In this document: positions 13,114-62,903 of the stretch, piece by piece | How the letters are laid out: the number at the start of each line of letters is the position of its first letter | Numbering within the stretch: the first letter of the stretch is position 1 | NCBI RefSeq assembly: GCF_008642375.1 | Contig: NZ_CP029194.1 | Span: 1,116,001 to 1,180,000 of the forward strand | DNA: 64,000 bases | Origin: Streptomyces venezuelae | Lineage (GTDB): Bacteria > Actinomycetota > Actinomycetes > Streptomycetales > Streptomycetaceae | Direction of reading: 5' to 3' | The notes under the pieces: generated by a model | Database searches by the model: none | The model's input: the letters and a program-made list of their open reading frames with translations, nothing else | What the model was told of the DNA's origin: nothing | Position numbers and translations under genes: made by a program

Positions 13114-14655
13114 TCAGCGCAGAGGGCCCGGGCTCGCCGCCGTGAGGACTCCGGCGATCCGGTCCCACGTCTCCGCGGAGCGTGCCAGCGGCGGCAGGAG
13201 TTCACCCGCGCCCGTGCCCCAGGCGTGGGCCAGAGCCACAGGGTCCTCGCCGGTCACCGCGCCCCCGGCCAGGGCGGCGGCGCCGAGGGCGACGAGTTCC
13301 TCGGCGGCGGGGACGACCAGGGGCCGCCCGGAGAGCCTGCGTACGGTGTCGGTCCAGGTCCTGCCGCGCGCGCCGCCCCCGATCAGGCGCAGCGGACGGT
13401 CACGTACCGCGGAGTCCGTCAGGTCGAGGCCGCAGGCGGCGAGGAGTCCGTCGAGGGCGCGCAGGACGGTGAAGGCCGCGCCCTCGTAGGCGGCGCCGAG
13501 GATCGCGCGCGGGTCGGTGGTGTGGCGCAGGCCGGTGACGAGACCGGCGGCGTGCGGCAGGTCGGGGGTGCGTTCGCCGTCCAGGTACGGCAGGACCACG
13601 ACCCCCGCGTCGCCGCCCGGCACCGCGTCCTCGCGGTCGAGGCCGAAGAGGGCGGCGAACCGGTCGACGGCGAGCGTGCAGTTGAGGGTGCAGCCGAGCG
13701 GAAGGTACGTGCCGTCGGTGGCTGCGAAGCCGGCCAGCCCGGGGTCGGCCGGCCTGGTGCGGGTGGCGGCGAAGACCGTGCCGGAGGTGCCGAGGCTGAC
13801 CACCGGGTGGTCGAGCAGGCCCGCGCCGCCGAGGCCGAGGCCGACGGCCGCCGCCATGTTGTCGCCGGTGCCGGCGGCGACGACGACCGTACGGGGCAGT
13901 CCGAGGGCCTCCGCCGCGGCCGCGGTGAGGGTGCCGACGCGGGTGGCGCCGGAGGGGGCGACGGCGGGCAGGAGGGCCGGGTCGAGAGCGAGGAGGTCCA
14001 GGATCTCGGGGTCGTAGCCGCCGCCGCTTCCTGTGCCCCTGGCGCTTCCCCTGACCCCGCCGCTTTCGGCGCCGCCACCGCTTCCGTACCAGCACGTCCC
14101 CGACGCGTCCCCGGGGTCCGTGACCGCGTGGCCCGTCAGGCGTTCGGTGAGGTAGTCGTGCGGGAGGCGGACCCCGGTGGCCGCGGCGGCGTGCGCCGGC
14201 TCGTGCTCGCACAGCCACTGCCACTTCGCGGCGGTCATGGAGGCGACGGGCACCGAACCGGTGCGCTCCAGCCAGGACTTCGGCCCGCCGAGCCCGGCGG
14301 CGAGGGCGGCGGCCTCCGGCGCGGAGCGGGTGTCGTTCCAGAGCAGCGCCGGGCGCAGGGGCCGGCCGTCGGCGCCGAGCGTGACGAGGCCGTGCTGCTG
14401 TCCGGCGACCGCGATGCCGGTGACGGCGGACGCCGGGACGCCCGCGTCCCGTACCGCCGCACGGACGGCCGTCGTGAGGGCGGTCCACCACTCCTCGGGG
14501 TCGCTCTCCCGCGCGCCGCCCTCCCCGGTGACGGTGTGCGGGGCGCGGCCGACGGCGAGGAGCTCACCGGTCACGGTGTCGACGGCAACGGCCTTGGTGG
14601 ACTGCGTCGAGCTGTCCACGCCGATCACGACGGAGCGGCTGGTGCGCGTGGGCAC
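13114..14655 (-). CDS. xylB: xylulokinase
   Basis: 513 residues from a GTG at 14655. FGGY-family kinase that phosphorylates D-xylulose. Landmarks: the N-terminal phosphate loop VIGVDSSTQSTKAVAVD, the sugar-site segment GIAVAGQQHGLVTLG with LLWNDTRS, and the C-terminal ATP region (GGGARGRTWTDTVRRL). Adjacent and divergent to xylA, which supports xylulokinase rather than another FGGY kinase. A Gly/Ser-rich insertion (about residues 186-206) is unusual but in frame. Regulation is probably through the palindrome at 14745-14767 shared with xylA. Confidence 0.93.
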   Translation of the reverse strand: MPTRTSRSVVIGVDSSTQSTKAVAVDTVTGELLAVGRAPHTVTGEGGARESDPEEWWTALTTAVRAAVRDAGVPASAVTGIAVAGQQHGLVTLGADGRPLRPALLWNDTRSAPEAAALAAGLGGPKSWLERTGSVPVASMTAAKWQWLCEHEPAHAAAATGVRLPHDYLTERLTGHAVTDPGDASGTCWYGSGGGAESGGVRGSARGTGSGGGYDPEILDLLALDPALLPAVAPSGATRVGTLTAAAAEALGLPRTVVVAAGTGDNMAAAVGLGLGGAGLLDHPVVSLGTSGTVFAATRTRPADPGLAGFAATDGTYLPLGCTLNCTLAVDRFAALFGLDREDAVPGGDAGVVVLPYLDGERTPDLPHAAGLVTGLRHTTDPRAILGAAYEGAAFTVLRALDGLLAACGLDLTDSAVRDRPLRLIGGGARGRTWTDTVRRLSGRPLVVPAAEELVALGAAALAGGAVTGEDPVALAHAWGTGAGELLPPLARSAETWDRIAGVLTAASPGPLR

Positions 14656-14744
14656 GCCCTCACCTCATCTCTCTGGGTCGTCTTCTCGTGTTTTTCGCTG
14701 ATTGCCCCGGATGCGGGTCTGGCGTCGCGGCACCCTCATCCCGT

Positions 14745-14767
14745 ATTAGTTATCTCAGATAACAAAT
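14745..14767. promoter_or_regulatory. palindromic operator in the xylB-xylA divergent region
   Basis: The core GTTATCT-C-AGATAAC (14749-14763) is a perfect palindrome and extends to 14745-14767 with one mismatched pair. It lies 25 bp upstream of the xylA GTG. AT-rich symmetry of this kind fits a ROK-type (XylR) or LacI-type repressor; no xylose regulator is adjacent, so the binder is inferred. Confidence 0.65.
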
Positions 14768-14792
14768 CACGAGAGCAAGGGAAGGACACATC

Positions 14793-15962
14793 GTGCCGGA
14801 GCTCTTCTCCCCCACCCCCGAGGACCGCTTCACCTTCGGCCTCTGGACCGTCGGCTGGCAGGGCCGCGACCCCTTCGGCGAGGCCACCCGCCCCGCCCTG
14901 GACCCGGTCGAGGCCGTCGAACGGCTCGCCGCCCTCGGCGCGTACGGCATCACGTTCCACGACGACGACCTCATCCCCTTCGGCGCCTCGGAGGATGAGC
15001 GCGACACCGCCGTCAAGCGTTTCCGCGCGGCGCTGGAGCGGACCGGGCTCGCGGTCCCCATGGCGACGACCAATCTCTTCACCCACCCCGTCTTCAAGGA
15101 CGGCGCCTTCACCGCCAACGACCGGGACGTGCGCCGCTTCGCCCTGCGCAAGACCCTCCGCAACATCGACCTGGCCGTCGAGCTCGGCGCGACCGTGTAC
15201 GTGGCCTGGGGCGGCCGGGAGGGCGCCGAGTCCGGTGCCGCCAAGGACGTCCGGGTCGCGCTCGACCGGATGAAGGAGGCCTTCGACCTCCTCGGGGAGT
15301 ACGTCACCGAGCAGGGCTACGACCTGCGCTTCGCGATCGAGCCCAAGCCGAACGAGCCGCGCGGCGACATCCTGCTGCCCACCATCGGGCACGCCCTCGC
15401 CTTCATCGAGCGCCTGGAGCGCCCCGAGCTCGTCGGCGTGAACCCCGAGACGGGTCACGAGCAGATGGCCGGGCTCAACTTCCCGCACGGCATCGCGCAG
15501 GCGCTGTGGGCGGGCAAGCTCTTCCACATCGACCTCAACGGCCAGTCGGGCATCAAGTACGACCAGGACTTCCGCTTCGGGGCCGGCGATCTGCGCCAGG
15601 CCTTCTGGCTGGTGGACCTCCTGGAGACGGCCGGGTACACGGGCCCGCGCCACTTCGACTTCAAGCCCGTCCGCACGGACGGCTTCGACGGGGTGTGGGA
15701 GTCCGCGAAGAACTGCATGCGCAACTACCTGATCCTGAAGGAGCGCGCGGCCGCCTTCCGCGCCGACCCCGACGTCCAGGGGGCGCTGACCGCCTCACGA
15801 CTGCCCGAGCTCGCCGTGCCCACGGCCGCCGACGGCCTCGCCGCGCTGCTCGCCGACCCCACGGCGTACGAGACCTTCGACGCGGACGCGGCGGCCGCCC
15901 GCTCGATGGCCTTCGAGCACCTCGACCAGCTGGCCCTGGAGCACCTCCTCGGCGTCCGCTGA
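14793..15962 (+). CDS. xylA: xylose isomerase
   Basis: 389 residues from the GTG at 14793, preceded by GGGAAGGA. It converts D-xylose to D-xylulose (and D-glucose to D-fructose). The sequence matches the short actinobacterial class: FGLWTVGW, the ring-opening His56 in ITFHDDDL, metal ligand Glu183 and Lys185 in [11 protein letters not shown], and the second-metal region [11 protein letters not shown] and FHIDLNGQ. The length equals the family norm. It is transcribed away from xylB, so xylose is consumed through the isomerase route into the pentose phosphate pathway. Confidence 0.97.
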
Positions 15963-15984: not shown

Positions 15985-17022
15985 TCAGCGCGTGGCGAGA
16001 GTCGAGCGGCGGACGACCAGCTCCGGCTGGAGCACCACGTGTTCGTGCCGGTGCTCGTCCGCCCGCTCGCCGGTCTCCTCCAGGAGCAGTTCGGCGGCCT
16101 TCGCCCCGAGGGTGACCGCCGGCTGCCGCACGGAGGTCAGGGGTACGGTCGCGGCCGCCGCGAACTCGATGTCGTCGTAGCCGACGATGGCCATGTCCTC
16201 CGGGACCCGGACCCCGGCCGCGTACAGCGACTGGAGGACCCCGAGGGCCAGCAGGTCGTTGGCGCAGAAGACGGCGGTCGGCCGCTCGGAGAGGCCGAGC
16301 AGGCGGGCGCCGGCGTCGCGCCCGGAGGCCACGTCGAGGCGCTCGGCCGGGAGCTCCCGGAGGGCCGAGGCGGGCAGGCCGGCCTCGGCGAGCGCGAGGA
16401 GGGCGCCCTCGCGCCGGTCGCGGATCTGCTGGAGGTGGGACGGGCCGCTGACATAGGCGAAGGAGCGGTGTCCCGCCGCCGCGAGGTGGCGGATCGCGAG
16501 GGTGCCGCCGACGACGTCGTCGACGGAGACCGAGCAGCCGGCGCCGTCGCCCGCGACGCGGTCGACGAGCACGGAGGGGATGCCGTGGCGGCGGAACTCC
16601 CGGAGGTTCGCGCCGCTGGGGTCGGCGGGCGTGACGAGGACGCCCCGGACGCGCTGCTCGGCGAAGAGGGAGAGGTAGTCGGCCTCGTCGGCCGGGTTCT
16701 GGTCGCTGTTGCAGACCATGACGCCGAGGCCGGCGGCGCGGGCGGTGCGCTCGGCTCCCCGGGCGATGTCGACGAAGAAGGGGTTGCCCATGTCGAGGAC
16801 GAGCAGGGCCATGATCCTGCTGCGCCCGGCGCGCAGCTGGCGGGCCGACTCGCTGCGGACGTAGCCGAGGCGGGCGATGACCCGCCGCACGTGCTGGAGC
16901 GTCGCGGGCGAGACCCGGTCCGGCTGGTTGATCACATTGGAGACGGTGCCGACGGAGACGCCCGCCTCGCGTGCCACGTCTTTGATGCCGACGGTCCCGA
17001 CCGTCCGCGCGGTGTCCGTCAT
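15985..17022 (-). CDS. LacI family regulator, probable rhamnose regulator
   Basis: 345 residues from the ATG at 17022; a GTG three codons upstream is possible. The helix-turn-helix is GIKDVAREAGVSVGTVSNV with the hinge QLRAGRSRIMALLV, followed by a periplasmic-binding-like sensor domain (VLVDRVAGDGAG, VGYDDIEFAAAATVPLTSVRQP). It is followed at 105 bp by rhaM on the same strand (upstream in position), and two operators sit in the adjacent rhaM-rhamnose isomerase divergent region, so it probably controls rhamnose genes. It could instead regulate xylA, with which it converges. Confidence 0.9.
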   Translation of the reverse strand: MTDTARTVGTVGIKDVAREAGVSVGTVSNVINQPDRVSPATLQHVRRVIARLGYVRSESARQLRAGRSRIMALLVLDMGNPFFVDIARGAERTARAAGLGVMVCNSDQNPADEADYLSLFAEQRVRGVLVTPADPSGANLREFRRHGIPSVLVDRVAGDGAGCSVSVDDVVGGTLAIRHLAAAGHRSFAYVSGPSHLQQIRDRREGALLALAEAGLPASALRELPAERLDVASGRDAGARLLGLSERPTAVFCANDLLALGVLQSLYAAGVRVPEDMAIVGYDDIEFAAAATVPLTSVRQPAVTLGAKAAELLLEETGERADEHRHEHVVLQPELVVRRSTLATR

Positions 17023-17126: not shown

Positions 17127-17447
17127 TCACGCGAGGTGGAAGACCTCGGTCAGCGGGCGCATCGCCGCGTCGGGCGCCCGCCCGTCCGGTTCCTCGAAGA
17201 ACTCCGCCATCTCGGCCTGCCAGCGGGCGTTGACCTCGGCGGCCTCCATCGCCGCGCGCGCCCGGTCGAAGTCCGGGGTCTCCAGGTAGCCGACGAGCAG
17301 CCCGTCCTCGCGCAGGAAGAGGGAGTAGTTGTGCCAGCCGGCGGCGGAGAGCGCCGCGAGCATGTCGGCCCAGACGTGCTCGTGGCGTGCGCGGTACTCG
17401 TCCGCCCGCTCGGCCCGGACCTTCAGCAGGAAACAGACCCGCTGCAT
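17127..17447 (-). CDS. rhaM: L-rhamnose mutarotase
   Basis: 106 residues from the ATG at 17447 (MQRVCFLLKVR, the usual family start; a GTG two codons earlier is possible). It interconverts alpha and beta anomers of L-rhamnose, supplying the anomer used by the isomerase. Recognisable family segments are RHEHVWADMLAAL, NYSLFLREDGLLVGYLE and the C-terminal MRPLTEVFHL; the conserved His in RHEHVW is present. It is transcribed away from the rhamnose isomerase gene, with its own promoter and operator in the shared region, and leads toward the LacI regulator. Confidence 0.94.
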   Translation of the reverse strand: MQRVCFLLKVRAERADEYRARHEHVWADMLAALSAAGWHNYSLFLREDGLLVGYLETPDFDRARAAMEAAEVNARWQAEMAEFFEEPDGRAPDAAMRPLTEVFHLA

Positions 17448-17471
17448 GTTCACCCTCCGCTCCTCGTGTGA

Positions 17472-17491
17472 CTGAAATGTTTCATTTCTCA
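17472..17491 (-). promoter_or_regulatory. operator-like inverted repeat downstream of the rhaM promoter
   Basis: GAAATG-TTT-CATTTC (17474-17488) lies within this span and shares the AATGAA half-site with the larger palindrome at 17573-17588. On the minus strand it falls just after the predicted -10 of rhaM, the usual place for a LacI-type repressor site. Confidence 0.5.
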
Positions 17492-17499
17492 GGATCGCG

Positions 17500-17529
17500 A
17501 CGCTAGGACGTGAGCGCCTCCATGGTCAA
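17500..17529 (-). promoter_or_regulatory. predicted rhaM promoter
   Basis: On the minus strand TTGACC (17529-17524), an 18-bp spacer and TAGCGT (17505-17500) form a vegetative-type promoter reading toward rhaM. Confidence 0.55.
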
Positions 17530-17534
17530 GAGTC

Positions 17535-17563
17535 TTGACGACACACCGGGCTATGGCTAGCTT
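17535..17563 (+). promoter_or_regulatory. predicted promoter of the rhamnose operon
   Basis: TTGACG (17535-17540), a 17-bp spacer and TAGCTT (17558-17563) read toward the isomerase gene. The same two hexamers and spacing recur upstream of the FadR gene at 45825-45853. Confidence 0.65.
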
Positions 17564-17572
17564 CCCCCCCAT

Positions 17573-17588
17573 AATGAATCGATTCATT
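17573..17588. promoter_or_regulatory. 16-bp perfect palindrome, LacI-type operator
   Basis: AATGAATCGATTCATT begins 10 bp downstream of the predicted -10, so a bound repressor would block transcript start. The even-spaced symmetric CG centre is typical of LacI family operators; the LacI protein at 15985-17022 is the likely binder. Confidence 0.7.
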
Positions 17589-17610
17589 TCATGGCTCCGA
17601 GGACTCTGAG

Positions 17611-18783
17611 GTGGACATGCCCGACATCGCTGCCGTGAAGGCCGCACTCGCCGCCCAGCGGATCGAAACGCCCTCCTGGGGCTACGGCAACTCCGGGACC
17701 CGGTTCAAGGTCTTCGCGCAGCCGGGCGTGCCCCGGACCCCTTACGAGAAGCTCGACGACGCGGCCCAGGTCCAGACGTTCACGGGCGTCGCCCCGAAGG
17801 TGTCGCTGCACATCCCGTGGGACCGGGTCGACGACTACGTGGCCCTCGCCTCGTACGCGAAGGAGCGCGGGCTCGAACTGGGCGCGATCAACTCCAACAC
17901 CTTCCAGGACGACACGTACAGGCTCGGCAGTGTCTGCCACCCGGACGCCGCCGTGCGCCGCAGCGCCGTGGACCATCTCCTCGACTGCGTCGACATCATG
18001 GACGCGACCGGCTCGGCCGATCTGAAGCTGTGGTTCGCGGACGGCACGAACTACCCCGGGCAGGACGACGTCACCGCCCGGCAGGAGCGGCTCGCGGAAT
18101 GCCTCGCCGAGGTGTACGAGCGGCTCGGCGAGGGGCAGCGGATGCTCCTGGAGTACAAGTTCTTCGAGCCGGCCTTCTACACGACCGACGTGCCGGACTG
18201 GGGCACGGCCTACGCGCACTGCCTCAAGCTGGGTCCCAGGGCGCAGGTGGTCGTGGACACCGGCCACCACGCGCCCGGCACCAACATCGAGTTCATCGTC
18301 GCCCTGCTGCTGCGGGAGGGGAGGCTCGGCGGCTTCGACTTCAACTCGCGCTTCTACGCGGACGACGACCTGATGGCCGGCGCGGCCGACCCCTTCCAGC
18401 TCTTCCGGATCATGCACGAGGTCGTCCGCAACGGCGGCCTCGCACCGGCGGCGAACGTCGCCTTCATGCTCGACCAGTGCCACAACATCGAGGCGAAGGT
18501 GCCCGCGGTGATCCGCTCGGTGGCCAACGTCCAGGAGGCCACGGCCAAGGCACTGCTCGTCGACGGCGACGCCCTGGCCGCCGCCCAGCGGGACGGGGAC
18601 GTGCTCGCCGCCAACGCCGTCCTGATGGACGCCTACGACACCGACGTACGGCCCCTGCTGCGCGCGCTGCGCGAGGAGCGGGGCCTCGACCCGGACCCGG
18701 TCGCCGCCTACCTCCGCTCCGGACGGCAGGAGCGGATCGCCGCCGAGCGCGTCGGCGGGGACCAGGCCGGCTGGGGCGCGTAG
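17611..18783 (+). CDS. rhaI: L-rhamnose isomerase (RhaI type)
   Basis: 390 residues from a GTG at 17611; an ATG two codons later (17617) is also well placed after GAGG. It isomerises L-rhamnose to L-rhamnulose with two divalent metals in a TIM barrel. The sequence is the Pseudomonas/actinobacterial RhaI type, not the E. coli RhaA type: VSLHIPWDRVDDY, LKLWFADGTNYPGQ, EYKFFEPAFYTTDVPDWG, VVDTGHHAPGTNIE and GFDFNSRFYADDDL carry the metal and substrate residues. It heads the rhamnose series; the next gene begins 43 bp downstream. Confidence 0.95.
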   Translation: MDMPDIAAVKAALAAQRIETPSWGYGNSGTRFKVFAQPGVPRTPYEKLDDAAQVQTFTGVAPKVSLHIPWDRVDDYVALASYAKERGLELGAINSNTFQDDTYRLGSVCHPDAAVRRSAVDHLLDCVDIMDATGSADLKLWFADGTNYPGQDDVTARQERLAECLAEVYERLGEGQRMLLEYKFFEPAFYTTDVPDWGTAYAHCLKLGPRAQVVVDTGHHAPGTNIEFIVALLLREGRLGGFDFNSRFYADDDLMAGAADPFQLFRIMHEVVRNGGLAPAANVAFMLDQCHNIEAKVPAVIRSVANVQEATAKALLVDGDALAAAQRDGDVLAANAVLMDAYDTDVRPLLRALREERGLDPDPVAAYLRSGRQERIAAERVGGDQAGWGA

Positions 18784-18826
18784 CCCCCCTCGCTCTCCGT
18801 TCACCTCCCGCCCGAAGGAAGACCAC

Positions 18827-20872
18827 ATGACCCCGGCCACACCCCTCGCCGTCACCTCTCTCCTGGGACGTGCGCACCGGCTCGGCGCCGACCCCCGTAC
18901 CACCAACTACGCCGGCGGCAACGCCTCCGCGAAGGGCTCCGTCACCGATCCCGTGACCGGCGGCCCGACCGACCTCATGTGGGTCAAGGGATCCGGCGGC
19001 GACCTGGGCACGCTCACCGAGGACGGGCTCGCGGTGCTGCGGCTCGACCGGCTGCGCGCGCTCGTCGACGTCTACCCGGGCGTCGAGCGCGAGGACGAGA
19101 TGGTCGCCGCCTTCGACCACTGCCTGTACGGGAAGGGGGGCGCGGCCCCGTCCATCGACACCGCCATGCACGGCCTGGTGCCCGCGGCCCACGTCGACCA
19201 CCTCCACCCGGACGCGGGGATCGCGCTCGCCTGCGCGGCCGACGGGGAGAAGCTGACCGCCGAGTGCTTCGGCGACACGGTGGTGTGGGTGCCGTGGCGG
19301 CGCCCCGGATTCCAGCTGGGCCTGGACATCGCCGCGGTGAAGGCGGCCCACCCGGCGGCGATCGGCGTCGTCCTCGGCGGCCACGGCATCACCGCCTGGG
19401 GCGAGACCTCCGAGGAGTGCGAGCGCAACGCGCTGCACATCATCCGCACCGCCGAGGCCTTCCTCGTCGAGCGGGGCCGCCCGGAGCCCTTCGGCCCGGC
19501 CGTCGAGGGGTACGCGCCGCTGCCCGAGGCCGAGCGGCGGGAGCGGGCCGCCGCGCTCGCCCCGTACGTCCGGGGGCTCGCCTCGCAGGACCGTCCGCAG
19601 GTCGGGCACTTCACGGACTCCGACGCGGTCCTCGACTTCCTCGCCCGTGCCGAGCACCCGCGGCTCGCCGCCCTCGGCACGTCCTGCCCCGACCACTTCC
19701 TGCGGACGAAGGTCCGGCCGCTCGTCCTCGACCTGCCGGCCGACGCGCCCCTCGACCTGGCGGTCGAGCGACTGCGGGAGCTGCACACCGCCTATCGCGA
19801 GGAGTACGCGGCGTACTACGCGCGCCACGCCGCCGCGGACTCCCCCGCCATGCGGGGCGCCGACCCGGCGATCGTCCTCGTCCCGGGCGTCGGCATGTTC
19901 TCCTTCGGGCGCGACAAGCAGACGGCACGGGTGGCGGGCGAGTTCTACGTCAACGCGATCAACGTGATGCGCGGGGCGGAGGCGGTCTCGGCGTACGCGC
20001 CGATCGAGGAGTCGGAGAAGTTCCGCATCGAGTACTGGGAGCTGGAGGAGGCGAAGCTGCGGAGGATGCCGCGACCGAAGCCGCTCGCGACCAGGGTCGC
20101 GCTCGTGACGGGCGCGGGCAGTGGCATCGGCCGGGCGATCGCACACCGGCTGGTCGCGGAGGGCGCGTGCGTGGTGGTCGCCGACCTCGACGCCGCCAAC
20201 GCGGCTGTCGTGGCGGAGGAGTTGGGCGGGCCGGACAAGGCGGTGGCGGTCGCCGTGGACGTGACGTCGGAGGAGCGGATCGGCGCGGCCTTCCGGTCGG
20301 CGCTGCTCGCCTTCGGCGGGGTGGACCTGGTCGTGAACAACGCGGGCATCTCCCTCTCCAAGTCGCTCCTGGAGACGACGGCGAAGGACTGGGACGTCCA
20401 GCACGACGTCATGGCGCGGGGTTCGTTCCTCGTCTCCCGGGAGGCGGCACGGGTGATGACGGCCCAGGGGCTGGGCGGCGACATCGTCTACATCGTCTCC
20501 AAGAACGCGGTCTTCGCCGGCCCGAACAACATCGCCTACTCCGCCACGAAGGCCGACCAGGCCCATCAAGTGCGGCTCCTGGCAGCCGAGCTGGGTGAGC
20601 ACGGCATCCGGGTCAACGGCGTCAACCCGGACGGTGTGGTACGCGGATCGGGCATCTTCGCCGGCGGCTGGGGAGCCCGGCGGGCCGCCACGTACGGCAT
20701 CGCGGAGGAGGATCTGGGTGCCTTCTACGCCCAGCGGACGCTGCTGAAGCGGGAGGTGCTGCCCGAGCACGTCGCCAACGCGGTGTTCGCGCTCACCGGC
20801 GGCGACCTCAGCCATACGACCGGCCTGCACGTCCCGGTGGACGCGGGCGTGGCCGCCGCGTTCCTCCGGTGA
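18827..20872 (+). CDS. bifunctional rhamnulose-1-phosphate aldolase/lactaldehyde dehydrogenase
   Basis: 681 residues, two enzymes in one chain. The N-terminal class II aldolase domain (about 1-400) has the metal-site segment HVDHLHPDAG and GHGITAWGET and splits rhamnulose 1-phosphate to dihydroxyacetone phosphate and L-lactaldehyde. The C-terminal short-chain dehydrogenase domain has TGAGSGIGRA, NNAGIS and the Tyr/Lys pair in YSATKAD and, by family knowledge (RhaE/YuxG type), oxidises lactaldehyde to lactate. Its stop overlaps the kinase GTG (GTGA). The fusion suits a pathway whose lactate product is taken up by the lut genes just downstream. Confidence 0.93.
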   Translation: MTPATPLAVTSLLGRAHRLGADPRTTNYAGGNASAKGSVTDPVTGGPTDLMWVKGSGGDLGTLTEDGLAVLRLDRLRALVDVYPGVEREDEMVAAFDHCLYGKGGAAPSIDTAMHGLVPAAHVDHLHPDAGIALACAADGEKLTAECFGDTVVWVPWRRPGFQLGLDIAAVKAAHPAAIGVVLGGHGITAWGETSEECERNALHIIRTAEAFLVERGRPEPFGPAVEGYAPLPEAERRERAAALAPYVRGLASQDRPQVGHFTDSDAVLDFLARAEHPRLAALGTSCPDHFLRTKVRPLVLDLPADAPLDLAVERLRELHTAYREEYAAYYARHAAADSPAMRGADPAIVLVPGVGMFSFGRDKQTARVAGEFYVNAINVMRGAEAVSAYAPIEESEKFRIEYWELEEAKLRRMPRPKPLATRVALVTGAGSGIGRAIAHRLVAEGACVVVADLDAANAAVVAEELGGPDKAVAVAVDVTSEERIGAAFRSALLAFGGVDLVVNNAGISLSKSLLETTAKDWDVQHDVMARGSFLVSREAARVMTAQGLGGDIVYIVSKNAVFAGPNNIAYSATKADQAHQVRLLAAELGEHGIRVNGVNPDGVVRGSGIFAGGWGARRAATYGIAEEDLGAFYAQRTLLKREVLPEHVANAVFALTGGDLSHTTGLHVPVDAGVAAAFLR

Positions 20873-22380
20873 GCGGGTCGACCACCCGGCCCCGCGACGT
20901 CTTCGCTGCCGTGGATCTCGGGGCCACCAGCGGGCGGGTGATGCTCGGCCGCGTCGGCCCCGGGACCCTCGACCTCACCGAGGCGCACCGCTTCCCCAAC
21001 ACGCCGGTCCGTCTGCCGGACGGGCTGCGCTGGGACGTCCTCGGCCTCTACCGGGGCGTCCTGGACGGACTGCGCGCGGCCGCCCGCTCCGGCGGGGTCG
21101 CCTCCGTCGGCGTCGACACCTGGGGCGTGGACTACGGGCTCCTCGACGCGGACGGCGCCCTCCTCGGCGTTCCGTACCACTACCGCGACGCGCGCACCGA
21201 GGGAGCCGCCGAGGCCGTGTGGGCGCGGGTCGGCCCGGCGGAGATGTACCGGGTCACCGGCCTCCAGCACCTGCCGTTCAACACCGTCTTCCAGCTCGCC
21301 GCCGCCACCGGCAGCACCCAACTGGCGGCGGCGGGAACGCTGTTGCTGATGCCGGACCTGATGGTCCACTGGCTGACGGGGACGCTCGGGGCCGAGGAGA
21401 CCAACGCCTCCACCACGGGCCTCTTCGACGCCCGCGCGGGCACCTGGTCCACGGAGCTGCTCGGCAGGCTCGGGGTGGATGCCGGGCTGCTGCCGCCGCT
21501 CCGCTCCCCCGGCGACCCGGCGGGCGAACTCCTCCCTCACGTCGTAGAGTTCACCGGGCTCGACGCCCGGACCCGGGTGACGACGGTCGCTTCGCACGAC
21601 ACGGCGTCGGCCGTGGTCGCCGTCCCGGCCACCGCCCCGGACTTCGCCTATCTGTCCTGCGGCACCTGGTCGCTCGCGGGACTGGAGCTGGACGGCCCGG
21701 TGCTCACCGAGGAGTCCCGGGCCGCCAACTTCACCAACGAGCGCGGTGTCGACGGCACCGTCCGATTCCTCCGGAACATCATGGGCCTGTGGCTCCTGGA
21801 GGAGTGCCGCCGGGCGTGGGCGTCACAGGGGCAGGGGCAGGCGCCATCCGGCCTGCCCGACCTGCTCGCGGCGGCGGCGCGGGCGGAGCCTTTCGCGGCG
21901 CTCGTCGACCCGGACGCACCGGAGTTCCTGGCCCCGGGCGACATGCCGGAGCGGATACGGGCCCACTGCCGCGGGTCCGGGCAGCGGGCACCCGAGAGCC
22001 CGGGAGCGGTGGTCCGCTGCGTCCTGGAGAGCCTGGCGCTGGCCCACCGGAGGACGCTGCGGCAGGCCGCCGAGCTGGCCGGCCGGGAGATCACACGGGT
22101 CCATCTCGTGGGCGGCGGGGCGCGCAACGAGCTGCTGTGCCAGTGGACGGCGGACGCCACCGGGCTGCCGGTGGCCGCCGGCCCGGTCGAGGCCACGGCC
22201 CTCGGCAACGTCCTCGTGCAGGCGCGGGCCGCGGGGCTCGTCGGCGACCTGCCCTCGACGCGTCGGCTCGTCGCGGCGACGCAGCCCCTGCGACACTACG
22301 TACCGCGGAAGGACCCCGCCGGCCGCGCCGCCTGGGACGCGGCCGCCGCCCGAATCGAACCGTCCCCGAGGAACCCGTGA
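20869..22380 (+). CDS. rhaB: rhamnulokinase
   Basis: 503 residues from a GTG at 20869 overlapping the upstream stop. FGGY kinase that forms L-rhamnulose 1-phosphate. Landmarks: FAAVDLGATSGRVMLGRV at the start, VGVDTWGVDYGLLD, YHYRDARTEG, the TVASHDTASAVVAVP segment characteristic of rhamnulokinases, and GGGARNELLCQWTADATGLP near the end. It lies between the aldolase/dehydrogenase gene and lutA; its TGA shares one base with the lutA ATG. Confidence 0.95.
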   Translation: MSGSTTRPRDVFAAVDLGATSGRVMLGRVGPGTLDLTEAHRFPNTPVRLPDGLRWDVLGLYRGVLDGLRAAARSGGVASVGVDTWGVDYGLLDADGALLGVPYHYRDARTEGAAEAVWARVGPAEMYRVTGLQHLPFNTVFQLAAATGSTQLAAAGTLLLMPDLMVHWLTGTLGAEETNASTTGLFDARAGTWSTELLGRLGVDAGLLPPLRSPGDPAGELLPHVVEFTGLDARTRVTTVASHDTASAVVAVPATAPDFAYLSCGTWSLAGLELDGPVLTEESRAANFTNERGVDGTVRFLRNIMGLWLLEECRRAWASQGQGQAPSGLPDLLAAAARAEPFAALVDPDAPEFLAPGDMPERIRAHCRGSGQRAPESPGAVVRCVLESLALAHRRTLRQAAELAGREITRVHLVGGGARNELLCQWTADATGLPVAAGPVEATALGNVLVQARAAGLVGDLPSTRRLVAATQPLRHYVPRKDPAGRAAWDAAAARIEPSPRNP

Positions 22381-25250: not shown

Positions 25251-25315
25251 CCGTTCGCCACGACCGTTCGCCACGACCGTTCGTCGCGCCCGTTCTCCAC
25301 GTCCGTTCGCTACGC
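25251..25315. repeat. five-copy 13-bp tandem repeat
   Basis: Five consecutive 13-mers begin with CCGTTC: copies one and two are identical (CCGTTCGCCACGA), and copies three to five (starting 25277, 25290, 25303) carry two to four changes each. The array fills the gap between convergent lutC and the LacI gene and runs over the last codons of the latter. Confidence 0.85.
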
Positions 25316-54858: not shown

Positions 54859-56199
54859 ATGACCATCTTCCCCGGCGGACGGCGCAGAGCCGCCGTCTCC
54901 CTCGCCCTGTCCGGTGTCCTCGCCCTGACCGCCACCGCCTGCGGTGACGACGGCAGCGGCGCGGGCGGCGACCAGGGCACGGAGGGATCGGGCAAGGGCA
55001 AGATCACCTTCTGGGACAACAACGGCGGCGTCCGCACCGATGTCTGGAAGGAGATCATCGCCGACTTCGAGAAGGCGAACCCGGACATCGACGTCGAGTA
55101 CGTCGGCGTGGCCTCCAAGGAGGTGCAGTCCAAGTACGACACCGCCATCCAGGGCGGCGCCCTGCCGGACGTCGGCGGCGTCGGCGCGGCCATGCTCGCC
55201 GGGATCGCCGCCCAGGACGCCCTGGAGCCGCTGGACGCCCGGGTCGAGGACAGCGCGCTCAAGGGCAAGCTGAACACCGGCATGGTCGACAGCGTCAAGG
55301 CCGCCGGCGGCCAGGACAAGCTGTTCACCGTCCCGACCTCCGCCAGCAACGGCGTCCTCTACTACCGCACCGACCTGTTCAAGGCGGCCGGCCTGGCCGA
55401 GCCCACCACCTGGTCGGCGTTCTACGCGGCGGCGGAGAAGCTCACGCAGAAGGACAAGAACCGTTTCGGCTACACGATCCGCGGCGGCGCCGGCTCCATC
55501 GCGCAGGCCCTGGACGCGATGTACGGCCAGAGCGGCATCACGGACTTCTGGAACGGCGACAGGACCACGGTCAACGACCCGAAGAACGTCGCGGCCCTGG
55601 AGAAGTACGCCGGCCTGTTCAAGAGGACGACGCCGGCCGCCGACGTCAACAACGACTTCACCAAGATGGTCGCGCAGTGGGACAGCGGCGAGATCGGCAT
55701 GCTGAACCACAATCTGGGCTCGTACCAGGACCACGTGAAGGCCCTCGGCACCGAGAAGTTCCGGGGCATACCGAACCCGACCCTGGACGACGGCACCCGC
55801 GTACAGGTCTCCAACCCGGTCGACGGCCTCGGCCTCTTCTCGTCCAGCAAGAACAAGGCCGCCGCCTGGAAGTTCATCGAGTTCGCCGCCTCCCACGAGT
55901 CCAACAGCAAGTGGAACAAGTCGGCCGGCGCGATCCCCGCCAACACAGAGGCCGCGAAGGACGCGTGGCTCCAGGAGGCCGAGCCGACCAAGCTCGCCGC
56001 CGACGTCCTCTTCAGCGGCAAGGCCGCGATCGTGCAGCTGCCGTACTACCTGCCCGACTGGAACACCATCTCCAAGGCCGACAACGAGGCCGGCTTCCAG
56101 AAGGTCCTGCTCGGGAAGGCCACGGCCAAGGAGTTCCTCGACGGTCTCGCCGAGCAGCTGAACGCGGCCCAGGCCGAGTGGAAGCAGCAGAAGAAGTGA
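54859..56199 (+). CDS. sugar ABC transporter substrate-binding lipoprotein
   Basis: 446 residues. Signal peptide with lipobox (SGVLALTATACGDDGSG). A solute-binding protein of the sugar type: KITFWDNNGGVRTDVWKEI, PDVGGVGAAMLAGIA, VPTSASNGVLYYRTDLF, GYTIRGGAGSIAQA, and NPVDGLGLFSS. It lies three genes downstream of its presumed permeases, an unusual order, with only 72 bp after the GH43 stop. Its stop overlaps the acetylesterase GTG. Confidence 0.9.
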   Translation: MTIFPGGRRRAAVSLALSGVLALTATACGDDGSGAGGDQGTEGSGKGKITFWDNNGGVRTDVWKEIIADFEKANPDIDVEYVGVASKEVQSKYDTAIQGGALPDVGGVGAAMLAGIAAQDALEPLDARVEDSALKGKLNTGMVDSVKAAGGQDKLFTVPTSASNGVLYYRTDLFKAAGLAEPTTWSAFYAAAEKLTQKDKNRFGYTIRGGAGSIAQALDAMYGQSGITDFWNGDRTTVNDPKNVAALEKYAGLFKRTTPAADVNNDFTKMVAQWDSGEIGMLNHNLGSYQDHVKALGTEKFRGIPNPTLDDGTRVQVSNPVDGLGLFSSSKNKAAAWKFIEFAASHESNSKWNKSAGAIPANTEAAKDAWLQEAEPTKLAADVLFSGKAAIVQLPYYLPDWNTISKADNEAGFQKVLLGKATAKEFLDGLAEQLNAAQAEWKQQKK

Positions 56200-57026
56200 G
56201 CGTCGGCCGCCGCGCGGTGGTCACGGCCGGGGCGGGCCTCGCGCTCGCCCTGGCCGGGGCGTCCAGCGCCCGTTCCCAAGGACTCCCTGACCCAGGACTC
56301 CCTCCCAAAGGACGCCCCCGTATGCGCACCGTGTTCCTCGCGGGCGACTCCACGGCCGCCCAGAAGTACGCCGACGCCGCGCCCGAGACCGGCTGGGGCA
56401 TGGCACTCCCTTTCTTCCTGCACAAGGGAATGACCGTCGCCAACCACGCGGTCAACGGACGCAGCACCAAGAGCTTCCTCGACGAGGGCCGGCTCGACGC
56501 GATCCTGACGGCGATCCGCCCCGGCGACCTGCTCCTGGTCCAGTTCGGCCACAACGACGCCAAGACCGCCGACCCCACCCGCTACACCGAGCCGTGGACC
56601 ACCTACCAGGACAACCTGCGGGTCTTCGTCGAGGGCGCGCGGGCCAGGGGCGCCCTCCCGGTGCTCGCGACCTCCGTCGAGCGGCGGAAGTTCGCCGCCG
56701 ACGGCACGGCGCTGCGCACGCACGGCGCCTATCCGGCGGCGATGCGGGAGGCCGCCGTGGAGTCGGACGTCCCGCTCCTCGACATCGAGGCGCTGTCCCT
56801 CGCCCTGTGGCAGGAGCTCGGCCCCGAGGCCACGAAGACCTACTTCAACTGGACCGCGACCGAGCAGGACAACACCCACTTCAACCCGCCCGGCGCGATC
56901 GAGGTGGCCCGCCTCGTCACCGCCGAGCTGCTCCGTACACACGTCCTCGCACCGCGCGAGACGTGCCGCCTGGACGACTCCGTCCCCACCGACCGGATCA
57001 CCTGGCCCGTTTCCGAGGAGAGCTGA
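56196..57026 (+). CDS. rhamnogalacturonan acetylesterase, SGNH/GDSL family (CE12-like)
   Basis: 276 residues from the GTG at 56196 (GTGA overlap). An RR-containing signal (GRRAVVTAGAGLALALAGAS) suggests export, perhaps by Tat. SGNH blocks: Ser in FLAGDSTAA, Gly in GWGMAL, Asn in FGHNDAK, and the Asp/His pair in DNTHFNPPG. NHAVNGRSTKSF is typical of rhamnogalacturonan acetylesterases. It removes acetyl groups that block enzymes on the rhamnogalacturonan backbone. Confidence 0.88.
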   Translation: MSVGRRAVVTAGAGLALALAGASSARSQGLPDPGLPPKGRPRMRTVFLAGDSTAAQKYADAAPETGWGMALPFFLHKGMTVANHAVNGRSTKSFLDEGRLDAILTAIRPGDLLLVQFGHNDAKTADPTRYTEPWTTYQDNLRVFVEGARARGALPVLATSVERRKFAADGTALRTHGAYPAAMREAAVESDVPLLDIEALSLALWQELGPEATKTYFNWTATEQDNTHFNPPGAIEVARLVTAELLRTHVLAPRETCRLDDSVPTDRITWPVSEES

Positions 57027-57028
57027 CC

Positions 57029-58324
57029 GTGAACCGAAGCAAGCAGCTGGGAGTGGTGGCCGCGACCGCCCTCGCCCTGACGGTCACCGCGCCCGCCGCC
57101 GGCGCCCACACCGGCCACCGCCCCGCCGTCGACCCGGCCAGGGCGACCCTGCCGGCCGGCGACGGCTGGGCGGCCGAGGGCGCCGGCACCACCGGCGGGT
57201 CCGCCGCCGACGCGTCCCGGGTCTTCACCGTCACCACCTGGGCGGAGTTCCGCACCGCGCTCGAAGCGCCCGGCACCGAGCCCCGGATCGTGAAGGTACG
57301 GGGCACGCTGAACGCCACCGCCGACGGCTGCGCCGCCTTCGAGGCCCCCGGCTACGACTTCGCCCGCTACCTCGCCGCCTACGATCCGGCGGTCTGGGGG
57401 TACGAGAACGAGGTCACCGGCCCCCAGGAGGACCTGCGGGCCGCCTCGGCCACCGCGCAGGGCAAGGCGATCAAGGTGAAGGTGCCGGCGAACACCACGA
57501 TCGTGGGTGTCGGGAGGCACGCGGGGATCACCGGCGGCAGCCTCCAGGTGCAGGGCGTGGACAACGTCATCGTCCGCAACCTCACCCTGGAGAGCCCCCT
57601 CGACTGCTTCCCGCAGTGGGACCCGACGGACGGCGCGACCGGGGCGTGGAACTCCGAGTACGACAGCCTCGTCGTGTACGGCTCCACACACGTCTGGATC
57701 GACCACAACACCTTCACCGACGGGGCCCACCCGGACAGTTCGCTGCCCTCGTACTACGGGGAGGTCTACCAGCAGCACGACGGCGAGCTGGACGTCGTGC
57801 GCGGCGCGGACCTCGTCACGGCCTCGTGGAACGTCTTCACCGACCACGACAAGACCCTGATGATCGGCAACAGCGACAGCGCGGGCGCCACGGACCGCGG
57901 CAAGCTCCGCGTCACCCTCCACCACAACCTCTTCGACAAGGTCGTGGAGCGGGCGCCCCGGGTGCGCTTCGGTCAGGTCGACGCCTACAACAACCACTTC
58001 GTGGTGGCGGGCCCGCCCTACGTCTACAGCCTCGGCATCGGCCAGGAGTCCCAGCTCGTCGCCGAGAAGAACGCGTTCACGCTCGCCGCCGACGTGCCCG
58101 CCGGGCAGATCCTGAAGAAGTGGAAGGACGCACCGGTCACGACCTCCGGCAACTACGTCGACGGCCGCCCGGTCGACCTGCTCGCCGTCCACAACGAGCA
58201 GTTCCCCGGGGAGATCCTGCGCGGCGACGCGGGCTGGACGCCGGCGCTGCGCACGCGTGTCGACCACCCCAGGGCCGTCCCGGCCCTCGTCGACCACCGC
58301 GCGGGCGCCGGCCGCCTGCGCTGA
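57029..58324 (+). CDS. secreted pectate lyase, PL1 family
   Basis: 431 residues from the GTG at 57029, only two bases after the upstream stop. Signal peptide (LGVVAATALALTVTAPAAGAHT). Parallel beta-helix lyase: VWIDHNTFTDG, LVTASWNVFTDHDKTLMIG with calcium-binding Asp/His, and catalytic Arg in ERAPRVRFGQVDAYNNHF. It cleaves polygalacturonate by beta-elimination once methyl groups are removed, and the next gene encodes the methylesterase. Products would be unsaturated oligogalacturonides, but no gene for their further breakdown (GH88, GH105, KduI/KduD) is present here. Confidence 0.93.
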   Translation: MNRSKQLGVVAATALALTVTAPAAGAHTGHRPAVDPARATLPAGDGWAAEGAGTTGGSAADASRVFTVTTWAEFRTALEAPGTEPRIVKVRGTLNATADGCAAFEAPGYDFARYLAAYDPAVWGYENEVTGPQEDLRAASATAQGKAIKVKVPANTTIVGVGRHAGITGGSLQVQGVDNVIVRNLTLESPLDCFPQWDPTDGATGAWNSEYDSLVVYGSTHVWIDHNTFTDGAHPDSSLPSYYGEVYQQHDGELDVVRGADLVTASWNVFTDHDKTLMIGNSDSAGATDRGKLRVTLHHNLFDKVVERAPRVRFGQVDAYNNHFVVAGPPYVYSLGIGQESQLVAEKNAFTLAADVPAGQILKKWKDAPVTTSGNYVDGRPVDLLAVHNEQFPGEILRGDAGWTPALRTRVDHPRAVPALVDHRAGAGRLR

Positions 58325-58417: not shown

Positions 58418-59584
58418 ATGCCCTCGCACCACCCCGCAAGCGCCACCCCCGAAAGCGCCGCCCCCGGTACCGCAGCCCCCGGCCGCCGCGCCCTGCTCAC
58501 CGCCGGTCTCGGCGCCGCCGTCGCCCTGGCCCTGCCCGCCACGACCGCGAGCGCCTCCCCGCCGTCGAACAGGCCCTTCGGCCGCTTCGGTTCGCCCGCC
58601 GCCCGCCTCACCGAGCGGACGCTGTACGTGCACCCCGGCGGCAGCGGCGACCACACCACCGTCCAGGCCGCGGTCACCGCCGCGAGCGGCGCCGGCTGGA
58701 CACTGGTCCTGGCGCCCGGGGCGTACCGGGAGACGGTCCTCGTGAGCGCCGCCCGCACCGGCATGACCTGGATCGGCGCGAGCGGGGATCCCCGGGACGT
58801 CGTCGTGGTGTACGACAACGCGGCGGGCACGCCCCGCCCCGAGGGCGGCACCTACGGCACGAGCGGCTCCGCGACGACCACCGTGCAGGCGGACGGCTTC
58901 ACCGCCCAGGGCGTGACGTTCGCCAACGACTTCCTCCGCACCGACCTCCCCGGGAACGCCGGCACACAGGCCGTCGCGCTGAAGGCGCAGGGCGACCGCT
59001 CGGCGTTCTTCCACTGCCGGTTCCTCGGCCACCAGGACACGCTGTACGCGGACTCGACGTCCCTGGCGTCCTTCGCCCGGCAGTACTTCGCGCACTGCTA
59101 CGTCGAGGGTGACGTCGACTTCGTCTTCGGACGGGCCCGGGCGGTCTTCGAGCACTGCCACTTCCGTACGCTGGTCCGCACCGATCTGGCGGGCGCCCCG
59201 TACGGTTTCGTGTTCGCCCCGTCGACGGCGGGCCCCAACCCGTACGGCTTCCTGGCCTCGCGCTGCCGGATCACCAGCGAGGCACCCGGCGGCTACTACA
59301 AGCTGGCCAGGCCCTGGGTGCCGAGCTCGGACACGACCGCCCGGCCGTCGCTCGTGGTCCGGGACAGTGTCCTCGGCCCCGGGATCGACGCCGTCGCCCC
59401 GTACGCGAACATGCGCGACGCCCACCCGTGGCAGGCGCAGCGCTTCGCCGAGTACCGCAACACCGGCCGGGGCGCGACGGTCACCGTCCCCGAGAACCGC
59501 CCCCAGCTCGACGCCGTCGCGGCCGCGACGGCGACCCGGGAGACGTATCTGGGCGACTGGATCCCCCGCAGGCCCCGCACCTGA
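58418..59584 (+). CDS. secreted pectinesterase, CE8 family
   Basis: 388 residues from the ATG at 58418, preceded by GAAGGAG; an in-frame ATG at 58379 is less well placed. A signal peptide with an RR motif (GRRALLTAGLGAAVALAL) suggests Tat export. CE8 landmarks: GNAGTQAVALKAQGDRSAF, catalytic Asp in FLGHQDTLYAD, second Asp in VEGDVDFVFGRA and Arg in LARPWVP. It removes methyl esters from homogalacturonan so the pectate lyase can act. Last gene of the plus-strand pectin series, followed by a strong terminator. Confidence 0.94.
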   Translation: MPSHHPASATPESAAPGTAAPGRRALLTAGLGAAVALALPATTASASPPSNRPFGRFGSPAARLTERTLYVHPGGSGDHTTVQAAVTAASGAGWTLVLAPGAYRETVLVSAARTGMTWIGASGDPRDVVVVYDNAAGTPRPEGGTYGTSGSATTTVQADGFTAQGVTFANDFLRTDLPGNAGTQAVALKAQGDRSAFFHCRFLGHQDTLYADSTSLASFARQYFAHCYVEGDVDFVFGRARAVFEHCHFRTLVRTDLAGAPYGFVFAPSTAGPNPYGFLASRCRITSEAPGGYYKLARPWVPSSDTTARPSLVVRDSVLGPGIDAVAPYANMRDAHPWQAQRFAEYRNTGRGATVTVPENRPQLDAVAAATATRETYLGDWIPRRPRT

Positions 59585-61138: not shown

Positions 61139-61229
61139 GGGTCAAGCGTGTCATCCGGCCCCTCGCCCGCACCAACACCAAGATCATGACGATTCACACA
61201 TCGCTGATGTCAATGCGGGCGCCCGCTCC

Positions 61230-62903
61230 TCAGGGCAGCAGGTCGACGCAGTCGAACGCGGTGCCCGCACTCAGGAAGCCGGTGCCGGTGGAGCCGCTGA
61301 CGACGCTCAGCCTGAGGACGTTGTACTGGCTCGGGTCGGTCTTCCAGGCGCTTGCCGGAACGACGTAGGTGAAGGTGTGGTTGTTGCCCCGGTACGAGCC
61401 GGTGGTCAGCGAGCGGGTCGACGGCTGGGCCGGGGGCGAGGGGATCGCGGAGACCCAGTCGTTGACGGTGACCTGGGGCCGTCCGTTGAGGAAGGCGGTG
61501 GTGACGCCGATCCGGAGGGTGTGCGCGGCGGCTGCCTGGGCGGCGGTGAGCCTGAAGTACACGAGTAGGCCGTCGTTGACGTCCTTCCAGAGGTAGCAGG
61601 GGAAGGAGGCGGCGACGTCGCCGGCTCCCAGGACGACGTTCCCGGTCCAGGAGGCGGCCCGGACGTCCGCGGGGTGGGCGTACGTCATGAGGGCGGCGTT
61701 CTTGAACCCGCCTGGTGTGCCGTCCCAGTCGCCGATCCGCCAGATCGCGGGGGCGGTGCTCGGGTCGTTGGTGAGGGTGAGGGTGTGGAGCGCCGTGGCG
61801 GCGCCCGCGGTGACGGTCACCGTGCCCGTGTGGACGGCGAGTTCGCCCTTGTAGACGGTGAGGGTGTAGGTGCCGGGGAGCATCCCCCGGCAGGAGAAGG
61901 CGCCGGTGCCTGCGGTGGCACGGGTCCAGTACTGGGCGGCGGCGTTGGCGAAGCCGACGGTGTACGGGTGGTCCGCGTCCATGCCGGCGAGGCCGACGCC
62001 CGCGACCCTGCCGCGGCCCGCGGCGCCGACCCAGCCGGGGATGCCGAGGTCGTCGACCCAGGACGTGTCGTGGTTCGCGGCGAAGAGCGCCGGGGAGGGC
62101 GTCCCCCCGTCGGTGAAGGCCAGCAGGTAGGGGCCCTGGAGGCCGAAGCGCATCGCCTCCGTCTGGGACTGGTTGTAGTGGAGGATCTCGTACAGGCCGA
62201 CGCCGAGTTCGTTGGAGTGGCGGAGGAGGGAGCGGTAGAACGGGCCGCCCGAGGCCTTCTCGTGGTTGGAGCGGACCATCCAGAGGCCGACCGAGCCGGT
62301 GGTGTACCCGACGGTGTCGTAGTCCATGACCCGGACGCCGGAGTAGTGCTTGGAGCGGGTGTGGCCGTCGGCGCGCTGCCAGACGTCCCCCGCCTCGATG
62401 ACGGTGTCCGCGCCCTCGACCCAGGAGTCGGGGCCCGCGTTGGGGAAGATCCCCGGCTTGAGGCGGGCGATGAAGCGGGTCGCGGTGAAGGACGTGTCGG
62501 CCTTGTCGGTCCACAGGTAGACGTTGTTCAGGCCGGAGCGGGCCGCGATGTAGTGGCGGAGCGTGCCGTGGACGACGGTGACGAGGACGGTCGACCCGGT
62601 CTGGGCGAGGGTGACGGTGGAGGCGCCGAGGCCGGACTCGACGTGCGAGTGCTTGCCGCCGTAGCCCTCGTACTCCGTGCCCTTGTAGACGAGGGACGTG
62701 AGGTCCCCGGTCGACTTCGAGACCTTGAAGACGAGTCCGGCGCCGGTGTCGACGATGTACTGCGTGCCGTCGTCGCTCCAGCCGAAGCCCGCTGCCACGG
62801 CGGTGCCTTCGACGGCGGAGAGGGCAGCGCCTGCGGCCGCTGCGCCGAGGAGGGTGCGGCGGCGGACGGGGTGCGGGGAAGTGGTGTCGTCGTACGAGCG
62901 CAT
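61230..62903 (-). CDS. secreted rhamnogalacturonan lyase, PL4 family
   Basis: 557 residues from the ATG at 62903. A Tat-type signal (VRRRTLLGAAAAGAALSAVEG) is followed by the beta-sandwich catalytic domain (YIVDTGAGLVFKVSKSTGDL, HYSGVRVMDYDTVGYTTG, VGLWMVRSNHEKASGGPFYR), an Ig-like middle domain (MLPGTYTLTVYKGELAV) and a jelly-roll C terminus (AIWRIGDWDGTPGGFKNA, LRIGVTTAFLNGRPQVTVND). It cuts the rhamnose-galacturonate backbone of rhamnogalacturonan I by beta-elimination. This enzyme links the rhamnose, galactan and pectin blocks to one polymer. Confidence 0.93.
   Translation of the reverse strand: MRSYDDTTSPHPVRRRTLLGAAAAGAALSAVEGTAVAAGFGWSDDGTQYIVDTGAGLVFKVSKSTGDLTSLVYKGTEYEGYGGKHSHVESGLGASTVTLAQTGSTVLVTVVHGTLRHYIAARSGLNNVYLWTDKADTSFTATRFIARLKPGIFPNAGPDSWVEGADTVIEAGDVWQRADGHTRSKHYSGVRVMDYDTVGYTTGSVGLWMVRSNHEKASGGPFYRSLLRHSNELGVGLYEILHYNQSQTEAMRFGLQGPYLLAFTDGGTPSPALFAANHDTSWVDDLGIPGWVGAAGRGRVAGVGLAGMDADHPYTVGFANAAAQYWTRATAGTGAFSCRGMLPGTYTLTVYKGELAVHTGTVTVTAGAATALHTLTLTNDPSTAPAIWRIGDWDGTPGGFKNAALMTYAHPADVRAASWTGNVVLGAGDVAASFPCYLWKDVNDGLLVYFRLTAAQAAAAHTLRIGVTTAFLNGRPQVTVNDWVSAIPSPPAQPSTRSLTTGSYRGNNHTFTYVVPASAWKTDPSQYNVLRLSVVSGSTGTGFLSAGTAFDCVDLLP

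Follow-up and report, generated by a model that had tools for sequence, protein, structure and literature searches.

A 12-gene pectin operon and its neighbours

The 64,000-nucleotide window analysed here (Streptomyces venezuelae, NZ_CP029194.1, positions 1,116,001-1,180,000) contains a 12-gene operon for pectin utilisation, flanked by genes for the catabolism of several other sugars (Table 1). Genes were called with a codon-usage script, families were assigned by Pfam and NCBIfam scans of the window proteins, signal peptides were judged by eye only, with no predictor, and genome-wide searches covered one contig of 8,558,202 bases. The region is made up of several modules: xylose, rhamnose-lactate and galactan modules, a De Ley-Doudoroff-type galactose set, the pectin operon and a lone PL4 gene. 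An initial annotation had instead read 50 kb of it as a single island for rhamnogalacturonan I (RG-I). The PL4, PL1, CE8, GH53, GH42, GH43 and CE12-like SGNH families on which that reading was built are all confirmed by the profile scans.

Table 1 Main features of the window (positions relative to its first nucleotide; x/80, occurrence among loci related to the pectin operon).
Feature	Position	Strand	Evidence and occurrence
Xylose module: xylulokinase	13114-14655	-	TIGR01312, 391.9 bits (cut-off 380)
Xylose module: xylose isomerase	14793-15962	+	TIGR02631, 706.6 bits (cut-off 447)
LacI-family regulator, predicted RhaR	15985-17022	-	PF00356/PF13377
L-rhamnose mutarotase RhaM	17127-17453	-	PF05336, E 1.6e-30
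Predicted RhaR operators	17473-17586		TGAAATGTTTCA (17473), TGAATCGATTCA (17575)
Rhamnose-to-pyruvate operon (whole)	17611-25212	+	
RhaI	17611-18783	+	638.7 bits (cut-off 531)
RhaEW fusion	18827-20872	+	1354 bits (cut-off 1152)
RhaB	20869 (probable start)-22380	+	409.9 bits (cut-off 528)
LutA	22380-23096	+	
LutB	23162-24571	+	449.6 bits (cut-off 444.8)
LutC	24568-25212	+	
Galactan module (whole)	25310-33643		
LacI regulator	25310-26290	-	
Two permeases	26380-28262	-	
Binding protein	28259-29578	-	
Predicted galactan-module operator	29640-29653	+	TGTGAGCGTTCACA, divergent promoter
GH42	29786-31834	+	E 1.3e-152
GH53, secreted	32054-33643	+	E 3.8e-127
De Ley-Doudoroff-type galactose set (whole)	34341-40391		
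DgoD	34341-35486	-	647 bits (cut-off 311)
SDR	35483-36235	-	family only
PfkB kinase	36288-37253	-	family only, 209 bits (cut-off 400)
KDPG aldolase	37250-37924	-	family only, 155 bits (cut-off 156)
SMP-30	38079-38984	-	family only
ROK regulator	39114-40391	+	
IclR regulator, MR_MLE and zinc dehydrogenase genes (whole)	40489-43689		family scans
MR_MLE dehydratase-like enzyme	41507-42661		
Zinc alcohol dehydrogenase	42625 or 42793-43689		
26-bp element, predicted GntR operator	45868-45893	+	TTCGTACGTCATATATGAGACGCGAT; core 40 bp upstream of gntR start
GntR/FCD regulator, first operon gene	45916-46566	+	PF00392/PF07729; 77/80
DHDPS-family lyase/dehydratase	46578-47486	+	77/80
IlvD/EDD dehydratase	47483-49204	+	PRK13016; 77/80
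Two ABC permeases, pectin importer	49328-51195	+	PF00528; 79/80
GFO/IDH/MocA oxidoreductase	51192-52391	+	80/80
DUF6807 protein	52388-53239	+	PF14100, E 2e-71; 80/80 by construction
GH43 with C2 domain	53236-54786	+	E 7e-73; no signal peptide by eye; 75/80
Solute-binding protein, pectin importer	54859-56199	+	PF01547; 77/80
SGNH esterase, CE12-like	56322-57026	+	PF13472, E 3.5e-15; no signal peptide by eye; 62/80
PL1 pectate lyase	57029-58324	+	PF00544, E 3.4e-51; signal peptide by eye; 73/80
CE8 pectin methylesterase	58418-59584	+	PF01095, E 6.3e-33; Tat-like signal by eye; 56/80
PL4 rhamnogalacturonan lyase, separate gene	61230-62903	-	RhgB_N, E 1.3e-87; Tat-like signal by eye

From the gntR gene to CE8, the operon genes overlap by 4 bp or are separated by gaps of up to 123 bp, and a carboxylesterase gene lies between CE8 and PL4. 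Both importers named in the initial annotation are present, each as a binding protein and a permease pair, and no ATPase gene adjoins either; in other Streptomyces a shared ATPase (MsiK) serves such importers. Of the enzymes listed there as secreted, PL4, PL1, CE8 and GH53 stand, while the CE12-like SGNH esterase, whose sole NCBIfam match is the pectin acetylesterase PaeY (60.5 bits, cut-off 1000), does not. Since both start without a signal peptide (by eye), this esterase and the GH43 enzyme are probably cytosolic.

The DHDPS-family and IlvD/EDD genes would supply the sugar-acid route that had been proposed. The DHDPS-family enzyme is divergent from KdgD (145 bits against a cut-off of 278). 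The IlvD/EDD enzyme has three [2Fe-2S] cysteine positions (C56, C124, C197), with the spacing of the Rhizobium enzyme described in PMC9795676, where substrates are also said to vary within the family. The GFO/IDH enzyme is weakly like glycoside 3-dehydrogenases (glucuronide-3-dehydrogenase 8tdi, 40.7 bits; DgpA, 40.4 bits), but its neighbour here is the DUF6807 protein, not a known partner enzyme of those pathways. The predicted model of the latter is a galactose-mutarotase-like beta-sandwich (predicted local distance difference test score 89.3).

Relatives of the operon were collected by scanning genomes with the DUF6807 protein. From the 123 relatives obtained, the 80 best loci were taken and every one examined, with genes counted at 40% identity or more over half the length. 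Because some loci extend over as little as 3.6 kb, all locus counts are underestimates. Gene order is kept across the 80 loci, although some contain inserted genes; in five, the permease genes are followed by another PL1-like gene. Of the 12 operon genes, 11 occur in 62-80 loci and CE8 in 56. Among named relatives, Streptomyces narbonensis and S. gardneri have DUF6807 proteins that are 96% identical. Outside the genus, Microtetraspora glauca carries the whole operon with the exact 26-bp element, reflecting either transfer or a contaminated assembly. A GH31-family glycosidase gene (847-3096 in locus L001) is divergent from the operon in 10/80 loci and is missing from that place in the window.

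A probable oxidative route for galacturonate

Many relatives have up to three genes upstream of the operon, for a uronate dehydrogenase, KdgD and a TIM-barrel protein. The first was identified by PDB matches of the protein from locus L073 (6mfh, 262.8 bits; 3ay3, 256.1 bits), and the adjoining KdgD-family protein from L045 falls in the PRK03620 subfamily (430 bits, cut-off 278). The third (392 aa; 11379-12557 in L093) has no Pfam or NCBIfam match and a TIM-barrel, glycosidase-like predicted fold. S. venezuelae has all three together at 6.643 Mb; its uronate dehydrogenase is 79% identical to the L073 protein and its KdgD-family protein, assigned by this likeness rather than by a profile scan of its own, is 84% identical to that of L045.

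Linkage was followed in 121 evenly drawn Streptomyces genomes (own genome included; some are drafts), in which an IlvD orthologue at at least 80% identity marked the pectin operon. The marker is present in 74 genomes, RhaI in 77, GH53 in 49, PL4 in 27 and uronate dehydrogenase in 99. Uronate dehydrogenase accompanies the marker in 73 of the 74 operon genomes and lies within 25 kb of it in 54/73 (54/60 with both on one contig; 6 further apart, 13 on different contigs).

The classical oligogalacturonide route of Dickeya and Bacillus comprises PL22 or GH88/105 enzymes, KduI, KduD and KdgK. PL1, CE8 and an importer are shared with that route, but searches of the S. venezuelae genome for GH88/105, GH28, PL22 and the GarD/UxaA family all returned no match, leaving neither GH88/105 nor PL22 for unsaturated ends. 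A search for KduI found a single family member (5.625 Mb), which is IolB (269.1 bits, cut-off 205). The initial annotation's list of pieces to look for elsewhere was thus a good lead as regards GH28, GH88/105 and KduI, and these absences fit another galacturonate route. Among the 121 genomes, PL22 and the GarD/UxaA family were each matched in one; at E 0.001, a GH88-family match is lacking in 51 of the 74 operon genomes, and a strong one (E < 1e-60) in 60.

The oxidative galacturonate pathway proceeds through uronate dehydrogenase (Udh), Gci or galactarate dehydratase, KdgD and a semialdehyde dehydrogenase. Uronate dehydrogenase and KdgD-family proteins are shared with the Udh route of Agrobacterium and Pseudomonas, and are encoded near the operon in the majority of relatives with both; unlike in those bacteria, the route would be tied here to PL1 and CE8, an importer, the IlvD/EDD, DHDPS-family and GFO/IDH enzymes, DUF6807 and the TIM-barrel protein. 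Such a pathway was described in PMC6353982, and a uronate dehydrogenase of S. viridochromogenes was assayed with galacturonate in PMC4476818. We consider it likely that the window holds separate sugar modules and that its pectin operon feeds an oxidative uronate dehydrogenase-KdgD galacturonate route, not the classical Kdu route.

On this reading, extracellular pectin would be cleaved by PL1 and de-esterified by CE8, the oligomers would enter through the importer formed by the binding protein and permeases, and the cytosolic SGNH esterase would strip their acetyl groups. The oligomers, or the unsaturated ends they carry, are the predicted substrates of the GFO/IDH and DUF6807 pair; together with the TIM-barrel protein, these two are candidate openers of imported unsaturated oligomers. 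Uronate dehydrogenase would then oxidise galacturonate inside the cell, and the aldarate would pass via KdgD to 2-ketoglutarate semialdehyde, with the IlvD/EDD and DHDPS-family enzymes predicted to carry out sugar-acid dehydration, of galactarate or L-arabinonate. The fullest version of this scheme is a Kdu-free Streptomyces pectin pathway in which redox-assisted opening of uronic-acid bonds by GFO/IDH and DUF6807 replaces GH88/GH105, the TIM-barrel protein founds a new cytosolic uronidase family and the IlvD/EDD enzyme is an aldarate dehydratase; it is quite unlikely to hold in all these parts jointly.

Several observations weigh against an oxidative route fed by the operon. GH88-family matches do occur in 23/74 operon genomes (14 of them strong) and GH28 in 24. 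The trio of S. venezuelae lies 5.48 Mb from the pectin operon, and the operon's 26-bp upstream element was not found there, so co-control is not shown. The L045 KdgD relative falls below the stricter TIGR03249 model (316.8 bits, cut-off 374), and uronate dehydrogenase must have other uses, because 26 genomes have it without the operon marker. NCBIfam, moreover, names the IlvD/EDD enzyme L-arabinonate dehydratase, above cut-off (918.9 against 882 bits), and the genome encodes at 6.903 Mb an enolase that is 54% identical to a protein of genome G047 whose best NCBIfam match is glucarate dehydratase (219 bits, cut-off 829). Since glucarate-dehydratase-like enolases are also found in 64/74 operon genomes (E 1e-60), aldarate dehydration need not fall to the IlvD/EDD enzyme; this enzyme is a candidate for that role, with L-arabinonate a strong rival substrate.

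The arabinonate match raises a real if minor possibility that the IlvD/EDD, DHDPS-family and GFO/IDH enzymes form an oxidative, Weimberg-type route for L-arabinose freed by GH43, which could coexist with the uronate dehydrogenase route. L-arabinonate dehydratase (608.8 bits) is among the close PDB relatives of the IlvD/EDD enzyme, the GFO/IDH proteins include some L-arabinose dehydrogenases, and the GH43 enzyme with its C2 domain is encoded in the operon itself. However, GH43 was not found in five of the 80 loci (six by gene calls) that keep the other enzymes, the GFO/IDH enzyme has no good match among aldose dehydrogenases, and uronate dehydrogenase and KdgD recur upstream, while arabinose genes were not looked for. 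It is unlikely that the galacturonate route relies on the enolase encoded outside the window, leaving the IlvD/EDD and DHDPS pair to another sugar acid. This reading would account for the enolase at 6.903 Mb and the frequency of such enolases among operon genomes, and in G047 one such gene adjoins uronate dehydrogenase and KdgD, but 10/74 operon genomes, some of them drafts, have uronate dehydrogenase with no such enolase (E 1e-60) and no GarD/UxaA match, types such as Gci lying outside this search. In its own right, the G047 region (L162, 9749-19292) is another uronate cluster, with a second-type IlvD/EDD gene, a zinc dehydrogenase, the TIM-barrel gene, uronate dehydrogenase, KdgD, the enolase and, by eye, a sodium-solute-type symporter; the neighbours of the S. 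venezuelae enolase do not, by eye, resemble genes of sugar catabolism.

The combination of pectin operon and adjoining uronate dehydrogenase and KdgD genes, mostly without GH88/105 and with GFO/IDH and DUF6807, was not found in the literature searched. Streptomyces are major soil decomposers, and the marker is carried by 74/121 genomes, 51 of them lacking a GH88-family enzyme. What had been a vague pectin island becomes a short list of assayable genes (GFO/IDH, DUF6807, IlvD/EDD, DHDPS and the TIM-barrel protein), and the conserved 26-bp element offers a handle for finding the regulon.

Linkage and upstream sites of the modules

Synteny across Streptomyces divides the modules. The operon marker lies within 60 kb of RhaI in only 2/62 genomes with both (2/24 on one contig; 22 further apart, 38 on different contigs), namely the genome of the window and G015; the rhamnose block joins the operon only in the close clade of the window. 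The corresponding counts are 14/49 for GH53 (14/30 on one contig; 16 far, 19 on different contigs) and 8/26 for PL4 (8/16; 8 far, 10 on different contigs), and 2/44 for RhaI-GH53, 1/26 for RhaI-PL4 and 2/25 for GH53-PL4. Among the 80 operon loci, PL4 stands beside the operon in 6, and rhamnose, xylose, galactan or galactose genes, where found at all, occur in 1 or 2 each. Regions were also read around GH53 (20, from 49 genomes), RhaI (20, from 77 genomes) and PL4 (20 of 36 matches in 27 genomes), mostly in genomes assembled in few contigs; some rhamnose regions are cut at an edge. One of the 20 PL4 regions (L150) shows several operon genes, and three more (L152, L154, L156) begin with CE8-like genes that, by position, would be the operon's end.

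Three of the modules also have a conserved upstream sequence each. TGAAACGATTCA lies upstream of RhaI in 17/21 sequences, and the two related sites of the window, both at the RhaI promoter, are the only matches there, a number reached in 0/100 shuffles. TGTGAGCGTTCACA is present in 20/21 GH42 upstream sequences and has one exact site in the window; with 3 mismatches there are 5 window matches (one inside the RhaEW gene, at 19005), not above chance (13/100 shuffles). Upstream of gntR, the core TCATATATGA and its flanks recur in 73/77 relatives with enough upstream sequence and are near-invariant over 26 bp; the exact 26-mer occurs in 55/80 loci, in two regions fetched later and at a single place in the window. 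Its weight lies in conservation and not in count, because 41/100 shuffles match as well (at most 3 mismatches in 14 bp). These sites are putative operators of the neighbouring regulators, and any induction of the modules is likewise predicted. The three sites differ from one another and, partial matches at chance level aside, none is found in the window away from its own module, so there is no sign of common control.

The proposal that all modules form one RG-I utilisation island and are used together on that polymer was not confirmed and appears improbable, although parts of it have substance. The gene content of the window does fit RG-I. Against a full separation of modules, the linkage of GH53 and PL4 to the operon, seen in many genomes, favours a single pectin neighbourhood: the marker is present in all 49 GH53 genomes and in 26/27 PL4 genomes, and because both lie near the operon more often than the rhamnose gene does, a loose pectin neighbourhood is real. 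G015 has its xylose, rhamnose, galactan and pectin modules in the window's order, but it lacks PL4 and its galactose set is reduced. The synteny expected of an island holds often, though not always, for GH53 and PL4 and fails for rhamnose. An RG-I locus would combine a rhamnogalacturonan lyase, GH105 and a rhamnosidase. PL4 is present, albeit in only 27/121 genomes, but no GH88/105 enzyme to open its products was found genome-wide, and no rhamnosidase family appeared among the 40 scanned window proteins (three small genes at 43750-45552 were unscanned, and GH78/106 were not searched elsewhere). The separate upstream sites likewise speak against joint use. The left end of the proposed island (13114-15962) was rejected as an RG-I part, its genes encoding xylulokinase and xylose isomerase.

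Rhamnose, galactan and galactose modules

A regulator gene is present in each of the modules for rhamnose, galactan and galactose, and the separate routes for rhamnose and galactose foreseen by the initial annotation hold up to different degrees. For rhamnose, RhaI, RhaB and the RhaEW fusion stand in one cluster; RhaI and RhaEW pass their NCBIfam cut-offs and LutB barely does. RhaB, whose start was called late, is best matched by rhamnulokinase models but stays below cut-off, and RhaM also falls below (54.8 against 99.6 bits); both match their Pfam families. In the 20 rhamnose regions, rhaEW and rhaB accompany RhaI in all, lutB/lutC in 13 and a relative of the predicted RhaR in 16. These are the enzymes of the RhaI-RhaB-RhaEW pathway with L-lactate oxidation genes described in PMC3870299, which already places lldEFG within RhaR regulons of certain Actinomycetales, so that the coupling of rhamnose to lactate oxidation is published. 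Many relatives, L137 (10486-15200) among them, have a four-gene ABC importer between RhaI and RhaM, whereas the window locus (17453-17611) has none, by eye.

Both the galactan module and the De Ley-Doudoroff set belong to known kinds. Beside GH53, GH42 is present in 20/20 regions, and the LacI, permease and binding-protein genes each in 19 or 20. The window has the same GH53-GH42-importer-LacI locus, with the full De Ley-Doudoroff set added beside GH53, as in 2/20 regions (of 49 GH53 genomes). Within that set DgoD alone passes a specific model, the SDR, kinase, aldolase and SMP-30 proteins being placed by family, and a GNAT protein gene lies between GH53 and DgoD. A further small sugar-acid unit may be formed by the IclR regulator, the zinc dehydrogenase and the second MR_MLE enzyme, whose score against galactonate dehydratase (290 bits) falls short of the 311 cut-off; small genes separate this unit from the pectin operon.

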